Source of the DNA: Acidimicrobiales bacterium
GTDB lineage: Bacteria > Actinomycetota > Acidimicrobiia > Acidimicrobiales > Aldehydirespiratoraceae
Direction: 5' to 3'
DNA: 64,000 bases
Assembly: GCA_040219515.1 (NCBI GenBank)
Contig: JAVJSI010000005.1
Location: forward strand, 209,243-273,242
Both the position numbers and the translations under genes were made by a program. Position 1 is the stretch's first letter. The number at the start of each line of letters is the position of its first letter. Of this stretch, positions 46,115 to 49,714 are shown piece by piece. The notes under the pieces are model-generated. The model did no database searches, had not been told where the DNA came from, and saw nothing but the letters and a program-made list of their open reading frames with translations.

Positions 46115-46660
46115 ATGGACGTCCTCGTCGCACTGCATGCCGCTGCCGCGTTGTTGCTGCTCGTGGCCGGGCTCGCGAAGATCGTTCGTCCTGCGCCGAC
46201 GACCGAGTTGTTGTCCACCCTGGGTCTGCCCGACATCGCGGCGCTCGCCGTTGCGATCGGCGTGGCCGAGTCGGTGATCGGCATCGCCGCCCTTGTGATC
46301 GGGGGACCGGTCACCGCCGCCGCCACCGGTGTGCTCTACGCCGGCTTCGTCGTCGTCGTGTGGCGAGCACTGGCCGCCGGCGCCACCTCGTGCGGGTGCT
46401 TCGGGCGAGTCGATGCCCCTCCCTCGTGGATCCATGTCGTCGGCAACGTCGGCCTTGCCGCCGTGTCGTTCGTCGCGATGGGCGGCGACACACCGATCGA
46501 ATTGATGGACGGCCAACCGGCCGGTGGCGCCGGATTCGTGCTCCTCGTCGGGGTGCTCGCCGGTCTCGCCCTCGTCATGTTCACGGCCCTTCCCGAGGCG
46601 ATCGGCGCCCGTCGAGGCGCCGCCGCGGCCGCCCAGTTCCACATCGAGGACGGCGCGTGA
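46115..46660 (+). CDS. MauE-like (DoxX-type) membrane protein
   Basis: A 181-residue protein with about four or five helices. LLLLVAGLAKIVRP near 15-28 and TSCGCFGRVDAPPS near 91-104 (C93, C95) match the MauE family of methylamine-utilisation proteins, which is needed to form the many disulfides of methylamine dehydrogenase light chain. First gene of a six-gene operon with 4-base overlaps. TACGTT ends 8 bases before the ATG. Confidence 0.82.
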   Translation: MDVLVALHAAAALLLLVAGLAKIVRPAPTTELLSTLGLPDIAALAVAIGVAESVIGIAALVIGGPVTAAATGVLYAGFVVVVWRALAAGATSCGCFGRVDAPPSWIHVVGNVGLAAVSFVAMGGDTPIELMDGQPAGGAGFVLLVGVLAGLALVMFTALPEAIGARRGAAAAAQFHIEDGA

Positions 46661-47826
46661 GCCGCCGCGTCGTCCAGACGCTCAGCCGCGTCATCGAGCA
46701 GCGCTCGTCGCGACGCGGGTTCCTGTCGCGCTCGGCCATGGGGGCGACGGCGCTGGCGGTGGCTCCCGCCGCGTACGCACTCCGACCGACCACTGCGCAT
46801 GCGGCCATCTGCTCGTGCTCCGGTTCGTCGTGCGAATGCGGGTCCTCGTGCTGCGACGGCTACACCGACTTCTGCTGCCAGTCGACCGGCGAGAACCTGT
46901 GCCCACCGGGCACGATCGTCGCCGGATGGTGGAAGGCCCATGGCAGCGGCTTCTGCGACGTCGACGGCAAGGCGCGGCCGCGCTACTACCTCGATTGCAA
47001 TCTTCCGTGTGATCCCGGCTGTGGGTGCGGCGGCGCCGGGGTCTGCGCGTCCTCCTGTACGTCGGCGAACTGTCGTTGCCTCGAAGGCTGCGGCAGTCGT
47101 TCCGTCGAGTGCACCCGCTTCCGCTACGGGCAGTGCAACCAGGACGTGGCCTGCGTCGGCCCGATCGCGTGCCGCATCGTGACGTGCGTGGTCCCGTGGC
47201 AATGGGACCCGAGTTGCGACGACACGCCGGCCACCGACAACTCGACCCGTTTCCACGACCGCGCCTGTCTTCACGACGGGTTCACCGACATCGCGCCGAA
47301 GGCGTACTACACCGAAGCCGTCGAGTGGGCCATCGAGAACGGCATCGCCACCGGCTACAGCAGCGACATCTTCGGGCCCGGCGAACTCGCGCCCCGCTCG
47401 CACATGGCCACGTTCCTGTGGCGCTACGTCGGCAAGCCCGCGGTCGAGTCGTCCGGGCCGTTCTCCGACGTCGCCGACGGCACCTTCTACACCGACGCAG
47501 TGGCGTGGATGGCTGCCGAGGGCATCACCACCGGCGCCGCACCGGGTCGGTTCGTACCCGATCAGTTCGTCACCCGAGGCGAAGCCATCACCTTCCTCTG
47601 GCGCTTCGCCGGCCAACCGGAGGCAGGTTTCGAGATCCCGTTCGCCGATGTCCCCGCCAACGCCTTCTATCGTCCGGCGGTGGCGTGGGCGGTCGAGAAC
47701 GAGTTGACCACCGGCCTCACCCCGACCCTGTTCGGCGGGGCGTTCTGGATCGGCCGGGCCCAGGTGCTCACCTTCCTTCACCGCTACGACCAACGCATCG
47801 GCCTGCCGGTCGAAGAGCCGGCATGA
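46657..47826 (+). CDS. Tat-exported cysteine-rich MauA-like protein with SLH domains
   Basis: A 389-residue surface protein. A twin-arginine signal (SSRRGFLSRSAMG, Arg19-Arg20) leads to cleavage near residue 48. About 170 residues with 26 cysteines follow, including LCPPGTIVAGWWKA and a RYYLDCN stretch, which recalls the quinoprotein methylamine-dehydrogenase light chain. From about residue 208 three S-layer-homology units follow (FTDIAPKAYYTEAVEWAIENGI; FSDVADGTFYTDAVAWMAAEGI; FADVPANAFYRPAVAWAVENEL), which bind wall polymers. The two tryptophans that would become the TTQ cofactor are not confidently identified. GTG start overlapping mauE. Confidence 0.85.
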   Translation: MSRRVVQTLSRVIEQRSSRRGFLSRSAMGATALAVAPAAYALRPTTAHAAICSCSGSSCECGSSCCDGYTDFCCQSTGENLCPPGTIVAGWWKAHGSGFCDVDGKARPRYYLDCNLPCDPGCGCGGAGVCASSCTSANCRCLEGCGSRSVECTRFRYGQCNQDVACVGPIACRIVTCVVPWQWDPSCDDTPATDNSTRFHDRACLHDGFTDIAPKAYYTEAVEWAIENGIATGYSSDIFGPGELAPRSHMATFLWRYVGKPAVESSGPFSDVADGTFYTDAVAWMAAEGITTGAAPGRFVPDQFVTRGEAITFLWRFAGQPEAGFEIPFADVPANAFYRPAVAWAVENELTTGLTPTLFGGAFWIGRAQVLTFLHRYDQRIGLPVEEPA

Positions 47827-48530
47827 TCGTCCTCGTCATCGTGCAGACCGTCGCCATTGCGATGCTCGCCGTCATCGTGTTCGGGCTCCTGCGCACCCAC
47901 GCCGAGATCCTGCGGGCCCTCGACCGGGCCGGCGTGCCGCTCGAGGACGCAGCGGGGGCGTCGCCGGTCGGCCCCGTGGCCGTCGCCTCCCCCACCACCC
48001 GAGGTGACGCGGTCGACATCGTCGGCACGGTGCCCGGTGGCGGTCCGGTGAAGGTGGCGATCGCCGGCGAGCATCACACGCTCCTGGCCTTCCTCTCGTC
48101 GGGATGTCGAACCTGTCAGGCGTTCTGGACCGAGTTCGCCTCGCCCACGATCGATCTCCCCGGCACGGCCACCCGGCTCGTCATCGTGGGGCAGGACCCT
48201 GCCCACGACTCCGAGAGCAAGCTGGCCGAACTCGCCCCGACGGGGGTGCGCACCGTGTGCTCGTCGGATGCCTGGACCGCCTACGGCGTGCCGGGTTCCC
48301 CCTACTTCGCTCTGGTCGACGGCCGTAGCGCGAGGGTCGTCGGCTCGGGAACCGCAACCGGGTGGGAGCAGGTCCGTGGCCTGCTCCAGCAGGCGCTGGG
48401 CGACGACGCTCTGGGCGAGACCGCCGCCGGCTCGGTCGATGCGGCGCTGAACGCGTCGGGGATCGGCCCGGGTCATCCCAGCCTCTACCCCGACGCCGCC
48501 GGGCCCGAGACGCCGGACCCGCCACAGTGA
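47823..48530 (+). CDS. MauD-like thiol-disulfide oxidoreductase
   Basis: A 235-residue protein with one N-terminal membrane helix (IVLVIVQTVAIAMLAVIVFGLL) and an outward thioredoxin-like domain. SSGCRTCQAFW places the active CxxC at C95 and C98, and YGVPGSPYFALVDG supplies the cis-Pro loop. MauD is required to fold the Cys-rich subunit of methylamine dehydrogenase; here the neighbouring Cys-rich protein is the obvious client. ATGA overlap with the previous gene; its stop overlaps the next GTG. Confidence 0.85.
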   Translation: MIVLVIVQTVAIAMLAVIVFGLLRTHAEILRALDRAGVPLEDAAGASPVGPVAVASPTTRGDAVDIVGTVPGGGPVKVAIAGEHHTLLAFLSSGCRTCQAFWTEFASPTIDLPGTATRLVIVGQDPAHDSESKLAELAPTGVRTVCSSDAWTAYGVPGSPYFALVDGRSARVVGSGTATGWEQVRGLLQQALGDDALGETAAGSVDAALNASGIGPGHPSLYPDAAGPETPDPPQ

Positions 48531-49186
48531 GTCCCTTCGCGCTCGCGTTCGTGGTCGCCGTGGCGGCTGCTGTGCGCGCTGCGTGGTCGCCTTGAGGCAC
48601 GTCGATGCTCACGAGCATCACCCCGCTCGGCGAGCGGGGCAGAGGCAATCGATTCTGGTTGACGAGGACGTGGCTGCTCATCGGGCATGTCGTCGGCGGC
48701 CTCGCGCTCGGCCTCGTGATGTCGGCCGGCCGCGCCGTCGTCGCCTGGGTCGGTCGCCCCTCCGACGGCACCGCCCTCGTCATCATCGCGGTCGCCGCTG
48801 CTGTCGCCGTGTCGGGTGACGTCATCGGTCTCACGGTCCCCGGTCGTCGACAGGTCGACGAGCGATGGCTCACCGCCTACCGCGGTTGGGTCTACGGCCT
48901 CGGGTTCGGCGTACAACTGGGGTTCGGCCTCGTCACGGTGGTGAACACGCTGCTGCTCGGTGTCGTCCTCGTGGCCGGAGTTCTGCTCGGCCCGGTGCAG
49001 GCGATCGGCCTGGGGGTCGTCTACGGGACGACTCGCGGGATCGGCGCCACGGTCAACGGCGGGGTTCGCAGCGTCGAGGACCTCCGTCGCCTCCACCGCG
49101 GACTCGACCAGCGCGAGCGGGCCGTCCGCCTGACGGTGCTCGCCTCGGTCGTCCTCGTGACCCTCGGTGCGGTGGCGACATCGTGA
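48527..49186 (+). CDS. Membrane protein with in-frame TGA at codon 23 (candidate selenocysteine or nonsense)
   Basis: A GTG at 48527 overlaps the mauD-like stop, and the frame reads MSPFALAFVVAVAAAVRAAWSP, then TGA (48593-48595), then GTSMLTSITPLGERGRG and about five membrane helices to 49186. Related actinobacterial proteins (from memory) read WSPCGxSML here, so the TGA stands where a cysteine is expected. Two hairpins follow: GATGCT/AGCATC (48604-48619) and CCCCGCTC/GAGCGGGG (48621-48639). Alternatives: a nonsense mutation, or a 22-residue peptide with restart at the ATG 48605, which has a good GAGG site 7 bases upstream (193 residues). The downstream gene overlaps its stop. Confidence 0.6.
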
Positions 49187-49638
49187 GCGATCATCGACTC
49201 TCGACCAACGGCATCGACGTGCTCGTGCGCGAAGGCTGGGAAGTGGAGTTCAGCGAACTCCAGGCCCGGCCCGGCGCACCGGCCCGCTCGCTCGTGCACC
49301 TCGCCAACTTCGCACTGCCGGCCGCGCGGGGCGACTACGGGTCCGGCGCCGTCGAGATGATGGACGGGGGTGCCGTGCTCGTCATCGTCATGGAGTTCGA
49401 CTCCGACTCGGCGGGCACGGCCATGTTCTCGGGGACCCGGGTGCCGAGCGACCTTCGTGTCGACGACTTCTCGGCGGCGGCCTTGCAGCGCCGACTCAGC
49501 GGTCAGGCCGGCGCCCAGCGGTTCTTCCGCGTCGGCGGTCGCGCCTTCGGGTTGTACGTCGTGCTCGGTTCCGGTCGCCAGGCCGGCCTGCTCGTGCGCG
49601 AGGTCAACAAGAGCCTCGCCGGCATCACCATCAGCTGA
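49183..49638 (+). CDS. Protein of unknown function, last gene of the Mau-like operon
   Basis: A 151-residue soluble protein without signal peptide or cysteine. GWEVEFSELQARPGAPARSLVHLANFALP and GDYGSGAVEMMDGGAVLVIVMEFDSDSAGTAMF (in part) suggest a beta-rich fold; RRLSGQAGAQRFFRVGGRAFGLYVVLGS closes it. GTG start overlapping the preceding stop, so it is translationally coupled to the TGA-containing gene: any ribosome arriving here by coupling must pass or restart after that TGA. Confidence 0.7.
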   Translation: MSDHRLSTNGIDVLVREGWEVEFSELQARPGAPARSLVHLANFALPAARGDYGSGAVEMMDGGAVLVIVMEFDSDSAGTAMFSGTRVPSDLRVDDFSAAALQRRLSGQAGAQRFFRVGGRAFGLYVVLGSGRQAGLLVREVNKSLAGITIS

Positions 49639-49653: not shown

Positions 49654-49714
49654 GGGACAGGTGTCTGACACCGTCGGGACAGGCGGGACAGGTGTCTGAC
49701 ACCGTTGGGACGGG
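49654..49714. repeat. REP-like palindrome, copies 2 and 3 in tandem
   Basis: GGGACAGGTGTCTGACACC occurs at 49654-49672 and again at 49685-49703, identical to 21351-21369, each followed by GTYGGGACRGG. The core GGTGTC-T-GACACC is a palindrome. As with copy 1, the site lies between convergent genes. Confidence 0.85.

Follow-up and report, generated by a model that had tools for sequence, protein, structure and literature searches.

A predicted selenoprotein encoded beside MauE and MauD-like genes in an Acidimicrobiales bacterium

Introduction

Among the described selenoproteins, TsoB is a rhodanese/DsbD fusion-like protein (NF045694) with a DsbD-like part and two selenocysteines (Sec) in a UxxxxU motif (PMC13188914). 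The table of the same 2026 review covers 119 selenoprotein families or subfamilies and lists UxxK as the motif of selenophosphate synthetase, and several predicted Sec-containing transporters are noted in the review (PMC13188914). In the bacterial SECIS (bSECIS) model, the loop has 3–9 nt with a G in its first two positions, the stem has 4–16 pairs, and the hairpin lies 16–37 nt from the UGA with an energy of at most -7.5 kcal/mol (PMC13188914). MauD and MauE, the proteins of methylamine utilisation, aid the maturation of methylamine dehydrogenase.

The locus described here lies in a window of 64,000 nucleotides, the whole stretch of DNA that was analysed, from an Acidimicrobiales bacterium (GCA_040219515.1). 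A frame with one internal TGA is found there between a MauD-like gene and a conserved gene of no known function.

Results

An internal TGA in a conserved reading frame

The features of the locus are as follows.

46115–46660, + strand: MauE, with CGCFG (PF07291, 54.7 bits against a cut-off of 27)
46657–47826, + strand: Cys-rich protein with a Tat-type signal and three SLH repeats (PF00395); start inferred
47823–48530, + strand: MauD-like protein with a CxxC (GCRTC); overlaps the selenoprotein start
48527–49186, + strand: predicted selenoprotein gene (frame and translation, homologues, structure model)
48593–48595, + strand: UGA, very likely read as Sec (aligned TGA/TGC in 93 distinct loci; Sec machinery)
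48604–48619, + strand: first hairpin after the UGA, 6 pairs; conserved, co-varying at one pair, not kept in Cys homologues
48621–48639, + strand: SECIS-type hairpin, 8 pairs, loop GGC at 48629–48631, 33 nt after the UGA
49183–49638, + strand: conserved protein of 151 residues and no known function; start overlaps the selenoprotein stop

The first-pass annotation, made without database searches, had claimed a frame from 48527 to 49186 that is open except for one TGA, at codon 23 in the context WSP-TGA-GTSML. Translation confirmed this claim. The frame starts at GTG 48527, which overlaps the stop of the MauD-like gene (TGA 48528–48530), its sole interruption is TGA 48593–48595, and the terminal stop is at 49184–49186. 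With Sec at codon 23 the product has 219 residues. The stretch before the TGA evolves as coding sequence. When its 18 codons were compared with those of seven relatives, 24, 19 and 73 differences were counted at codon positions 1, 2 and 3 respectively, and 51 codon changes were synonymous versus 34 non-synonymous.

Codon 23 alternates between TGA and TGC

In the window's own family a homologue was found in 27 of 51 genomes, and each of the 27 has exactly one internal TGA, at the aligned codon in every case. A scan of one genome per species yielded 16 loci, at least five of them genes identical to family loci. Of the 43 loci in the combined set, 42 have TGA at the aligned codon; the exception, with TGC, is locus L063 from a Jatrophihabitans MAG. 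In a sample of the Actinomycetota, 66 of 396 genomes have a homologue (67 matches); codon 23 is TGA in 54 of the matches, TGC in 10, and is not covered in three (G229, G226 and G090). Neither TAA nor TAG was found at codon 23 in this phylum sample, where all stops were masked alike, so that either could have shown.

A total of 110 loci bear the codon, and 93 distinct ones, 82 with TGA and 11 with TGC, were left after repeats and short or N-containing stretches had been dropped. A conserved in-frame UGA with Cys in homologues is a criterion for a selenoprotein, and it is met by these loci. It is this conservation, seen already in the 27 family genomes, rather than the folding energy of the region, that excludes a chance origin of the internal TGA. 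The expectation of the first-pass annotation that homologues have Cys at this position also held, TGC being present in 11 distinct homologues.

A very divergent second copy was observed in genome G148 (L134:4508-5206, - strand), with its TGA in STG-TGA-GTSM and a hairpin of loop GGTC at 32 nt from the TGA. The same genome has a Cys copy elsewhere.

The genome encodes the Sec machinery

The presence of sel genes had been named beforehand as a check on the selenoprotein reading. When the genome (4.02 Mb, 19 contigs) was searched, selA (393.4 bits against a cut-off of 267.9), selB (276.4 against 242.25), tRNA-Sec (64 against 47) and selD (362.2 against 125) were all found, each over its cut-off. 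The tRNA was also called by ARAGORN as tRNA-SeC with anticodon tca. selA lies directly before selB, and their frames adjoin at 156653.

The selD gene (L020, G000:C16:95480-96403) has one in-frame TGA, in GAGUGCK, and is thus itself a predicted selenoprotein; the motif fits the UxxK given for selenophosphate synthetase in the review table (PMC13188914).

Since 49 of the 51 family genomes have selA over the cut-off, a contrast within the family is uninformative and was made on the phylum sample instead, where selA was detected in 232 of 396 genomes (E 1e-20). It is present in 52 of the 53 genomes with only TGA copies, compared with two of the nine with only Cys copies (Fisher p 5.7e-7); G148, with one TGC and one TGA copy, was excluded from the test. 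In the single TGA-only exception, G237, a selA fragment is seen near a contig end. The two Cys-only genomes that do carry selA count against a decoding link, and the Fisher test treats related genomes as independent, which they are not. In the species scan, 15 of 16 genomes have selA over the cut-off, the one without it being the genome of the TGC locus L063.

In a tree of 81 Sec and 11 Cys rows (92 in total; L048, L065, L112 and identical proteins omitted), three changes of the Sec/Cys label are needed, two of which are forced by well-supported branches. The Cys rows G182, G375, G380 and L063 group together on one branch (support 100/99) that is nested among Sec rows, with support of 98/75 and 92/83 for the forks enclosing it. 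No selA was found in these four genomes. This nesting, together with the lack of selA, suggests that Sec was probably exchanged for Cys on this branch, and such an exchange where the Sec machinery is missing is the likely history.

Two conserved hairpins follow the TGA

Hairpins at 48604–48619 and at 48621–48639, the latter with loop GGC, had been proposed as the SECIS region. Both are present and conserved, so the proposal held, with the refinement that it is the second hairpin that fits the published model (loop GGC, 8 pairs, 33 nt, -14.8 kcal/mol). The stretch 48593–48645 folds at -23.1 kcal/mol with a z of -2.38 against dinucleotide shuffles, 6 of 200 being at least as good. Under SECIS rules, 4.6% of synonymous-codon shuffles match the hairpin of the window.

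TGA and Cys loci could not be told apart by the folding energy of the whole stretch (54 nt; mean z -1.10 versus -0.93, p 0.36), and for this reason model-specific hairpins and pair counts were used. In a scan limited to uninterrupted stems and loops of 3–6 nt, a SECIS-model hairpin was found at 73 of the 82 TGA loci and at none of the 11 Cys loci; shuffles qualified in 26% and 6% of cases, respectively. By minimum-energy folding with no energy limit, a SECIS-type hairpin was seen at 78 of 82 TGA and 4 of 11 Cys loci. Taken singly, only 32 of the 82 TGA loci beat 95% of their synonymous shuffles.

The alignment used for pair counts (A2) comprises 55 of 58 group-A rows, all but L131, L132 and L133. 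Also omitted were L134 and the 22 group-B rows, in which the hairpin lies at a different distance. The two hairpins are paired in 96.9% of cells in the 55 TGA homologues versus 45.5% in the 11 Cys homologues, the latter value being no better than shuffles. The co-variation score in the TGA homologues is 0.315, compared with 0.092 for shuffles and at most 0.132 for slid versions. As the structure was taken from one of the 55 TGA sequences, these values are biased in favour, and the Cys homologues are the better control. Six pairs are changed on both sides, which is not above shuffles (172 of 500 reach six). The clearest case of compensatory change comes from comparing the PLGE group (CCCCGCTC/GAGCGGGG) with the VVHG group (CCCCCGTG/CACGGGGG): their protein sequences are different, but in both the loop stays 33 nt from the UGA. 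In the PVGE group the hairpin is at 29 nt.

A covariance model of the element scored 72.8 bits at the gene, and the next best place in the genome reached 18.2. The absence of a second place shows that the element belongs to the selenoprotein gene. In seven other TGA genomes the gene scored 62.7–72.6, and four Cys genomes gave at most 30.2; for genes that went into building the model, a match is given by construction.

Together, the Cys homologues, the Sec machinery and the SECIS-type hairpin are computed checks that support the selenoprotein reading of the first-pass annotation, although the product is untested. Decoding of UGA 48593–48595 as Sec is thus very likely on strong comparative evidence; incorporation of Sec and the product itself have not been shown.

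The predicted product and its weak link to DsbD/CcdA domains

An AlphaFold2 model of the product is all-helical (mean pLDDT 92.6, pTM 0.88), with a break at residues 19–21 and a helix from residue 22. Sec23 would thereby be placed at the helix start after the break in the N-terminal helix pair, as seen in the model and not by experiment. Among 32 homologues, an invariant Cys/Sec is seen at column 23 alone, and the conserved Cys pair of the DsbD/CcdA membrane domain was not met with in this set. The window protein contains no Cys.

No Pfam family matches the window protein. Of the 32 homologues, six match DsbD_2 and two DsbD_TM at E up to 1; L054 passes the DsbD_2 cut-off (30.4 bits versus 24.9), and nine other scanned members do not. 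With the model of the window protein, Foldseek found nothing at E 0.001. The top VIA-align matches (best Z 7.0) are general membrane proteins with no DsbD/CcdA chain among them, an absence that excludes nothing. A profile search against PDB sequences found no match, and profile comparison with CcdA gave a probability of 2.1%, with the qualification that the motif filter returned frames for only 6 of 17 loci and that of L141 is likely a wrong frame. From the few DsbD_2 and DsbD_TM matches and the lack of a clear fold or profile match, the selenoprotein, a multi-helix membrane protein of about 220 residues, is taken as a distant relative of the DsbD/CcdA transmembrane domains and not as a member. 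The link is weak.

Neither the window protein nor the scanned homologues matched any selenoprotein model in Pfam or NCBIfam 20.0. With curated NCBIfam cut-offs, the window protein and 10 homologues gave only matches far below them, and these same proteins do not match NF045694 (TsoB).

Thiol-disulfide genes lie beside the predicted selenoprotein gene

The first-pass annotation had described the neighbours as thiol-disulfide proteins, which held: a MauD-like CxxC protein and a MauE with CGCFG are encoded in the operon. The MauD-like protein is a weak match to TIGR02661 (16.4 bits versus a cut-off of 188.6). The Cys-rich protein is just below the cut-off of TIGR01409 (15.8 versus 16.7) and is conserved beside the selenoprotein gene. 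Searches of solved structures gave no meaningful match for either of these two proteins, and the 151-residue protein has no Pfam or NCBIfam match.

Conservation of the operon was counted at those TGA loci of the WSPU group for which 4 kb of DNA or more was available (n = 20, five being from the same family as the window); shorter loci were excluded, and some missing neighbours fall beyond the available DNA. The MauD-like gene precedes the selenoprotein gene in 20 of 20, the 151-residue protein follows it in 19, the Cys-rich protein lies before or after it in 19, and MauE is near it in 14. All 32 aligned loci keep the CxxC of the MauD-like protein, and 17 of 19 MauE matches have CGCFG. G380, in which no selA was found, keeps the operon with the Cys form. 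MauD-like genes are matched only weakly or not at all in the second group. At 7 of the 11 Cys loci tested, and at most Cys loci of the distant group, none of these neighbours is seen. In seven TGA loci (L114, L116, L118, L122, L124, L126 and L129) the selenoprotein frame runs on into a MauE domain that exceeds the PF07291 cut-off, and this fusion favours a partnership with MauE.

Two further observations were made here. The Cys-rich protein (46657–47826) has a conserved GWWK stretch beside CPPGT and is kept in the operon across classes. Just after the operon (about 49654–49711), GGGACAGGTGTCTGACACCGT occurs twice in direct orientation; it has a palindromic core, and the copies resemble a repetitive element.

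Discussion

Proposed function

In the proposed mechanism, SelB with Sec-tRNA(Sec) would read UGA 48593–48595 as Sec under direction of the hairpins just downstream, the second carrying the apical G of a bacterial SECIS and the first being a conserved addition. The CxxC and CGCFG proteins of the operon and the MauE fusions are the basis for inferring a selenol/disulfide relay in the membrane, formed by the selenoprotein with its operon partners. This function is untested and inferred from neighbours only, and it may as easily prove wrong as right. Electrons would move by way of Sec23 between the membrane and two operon partners, MauE and the MauD-like CxxC protein, and the relay may serve disulfide maturation of the Cys-rich Tat-type protein, which is reminiscent of methylamine dehydrogenase light chains although no database match backs the resemblance. 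A selenenylsulfide would have to be formed with a partner protein, since no conserved Cys is available to Sec23 within its own polypeptide. The direction of electron flow and the substrate are guesses, no more than possible ones.

A bolder reading can be given, for which the balance is just as even: a single selenol in a DsbD/CcdA-like domain, decoded through a two-hairpin SECIS region, would work in trans with MauE and the CxxC protein. The whole would then be a transmembrane relay for a disulfide-rich exported protein, with MauE on the same chain in some relatives.

Alternative explanations

It remains possible that Sec23 serves transport, as a binding site for a metal or a small sulfur compound, without any redox relay. 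In favour of this explanation, fold comparison yields only general transporter-like helical matches, several predicted Sec-containing transporters are noted in the review (PMC13188914), and one invariant chalcogen without a conserved partner would suit a ligand. Against it, the neighbours are CxxC and CGC proteins, and MauE is fused in seven loci.

A regulated pair, in which Sec is inserted and a shorter product arises under selenium shortage by restart at 48605, is unlikely. A start codon and a GAGG-like site do occur soon after the UGA in many TGA loci; however, the protein motif accounts for both (the Gly that comes after Sec and the Met of SML), and a start codon at this position is not universal.

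Least able to survive is the competing reading already raised in the first-pass annotation, a TGA that is a real stop, either nonsense or conserved, with restart at ATG 48605. A 193-residue frame begins at this ATG with GAGG preceding it, and the ATG is kept at the restart position in many TGA homologues. However, the TGA is common to dozens of species and alternates only with TGC, and the TGC genes are read straight through. In the TGA loci L047, L090, L131 and L132, the ATG (Met of the SML motif) is replaced by GTG, CTG, ATC and GTC, respectively. The GAGG is present because the UGA precedes an invariant Gly codon, which Cys homologues share. Neither the WSP motif nor the N-terminal helix would be part of the restart product, and the association with selA is left unexplained. 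On the two points of the missing ATG and the origin of the GAGG this reading is weakened, and we consider it very unlikely.

A nonsense mutation was rejected, since the TGA is common to many species, and general reassignment of UGA is unsupported, as the selenoprotein and MauD-like genes both terminate in TGA.

Significance

Sec decoding at this locus, the reading preferred here, means a further selenoprotein family, and a frequent one in Actinomycetota (a homologue in 66 of 396 sampled genomes). Under the standard code such genes appear truncated or with a start that is too late. The family is a conserved client for the Sec machinery of many uncultured lineages, and the Sec/Cys switch at codon 23 goes with selA. 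It would link selenium to MauE/MauD-type disulfide chemistry, which can be tested directly in a cultured relative, Phycicoccus sp. Soil802, whose genome carries both selA and a TGA form of the gene (L055).

The family is absent, by name or motif, from the 119-entry table of the review (PMC13188914). No description of it was found in the literature searched, including the relevant sections of PMC13188914, PMC12013277 and PMC5029168; supplements and RefSeq annotation were outside the scope. Within these sources, neither the membrane family nor its partnership is listed; the Sec decoding itself is likely of the ordinary kind.

Comparison with known systems

Of the Mau proteins, MauE is matched well, the protein encoded at 46115–46660 passing the Pfam cut-off, and a MauD-like CxxC protein adjoins the selenoprotein gene. 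In contrast to MauD itself, this protein falls far below the MauD cut-off, and the Cys-rich protein is without a solved-structure match. The second hairpin shares with the bSECIS consensus a 3-nt loop with G first, an 8-pair stem, the distance of 33 nt and an energy of -14.8 kcal/mol, and differs by the extra conserved hairpin between it and the UGA. The nearest entries in the review table are TsoB and a few predicted transporters (PMC13188914). TsoB is listed there as a selenoprotein with a DsbD-like part; the window protein is a predicted selenoprotein distantly related to the DsbD/CcdA domains and has one Sec, against two in TsoB. With the DsbD/CcdA proteins (PF13386 DsbD_2, PF02683 DsbD_TM), the family shares a multi-helix membrane protein and an SPC-like motif near the N-terminus. 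CcdA relatives carry two S/T-P-C motifs (4 of 6 frames returned), whereas in the predicted selenoprotein family Sec would replace Cys, and a single chalcogen residue is invariant.
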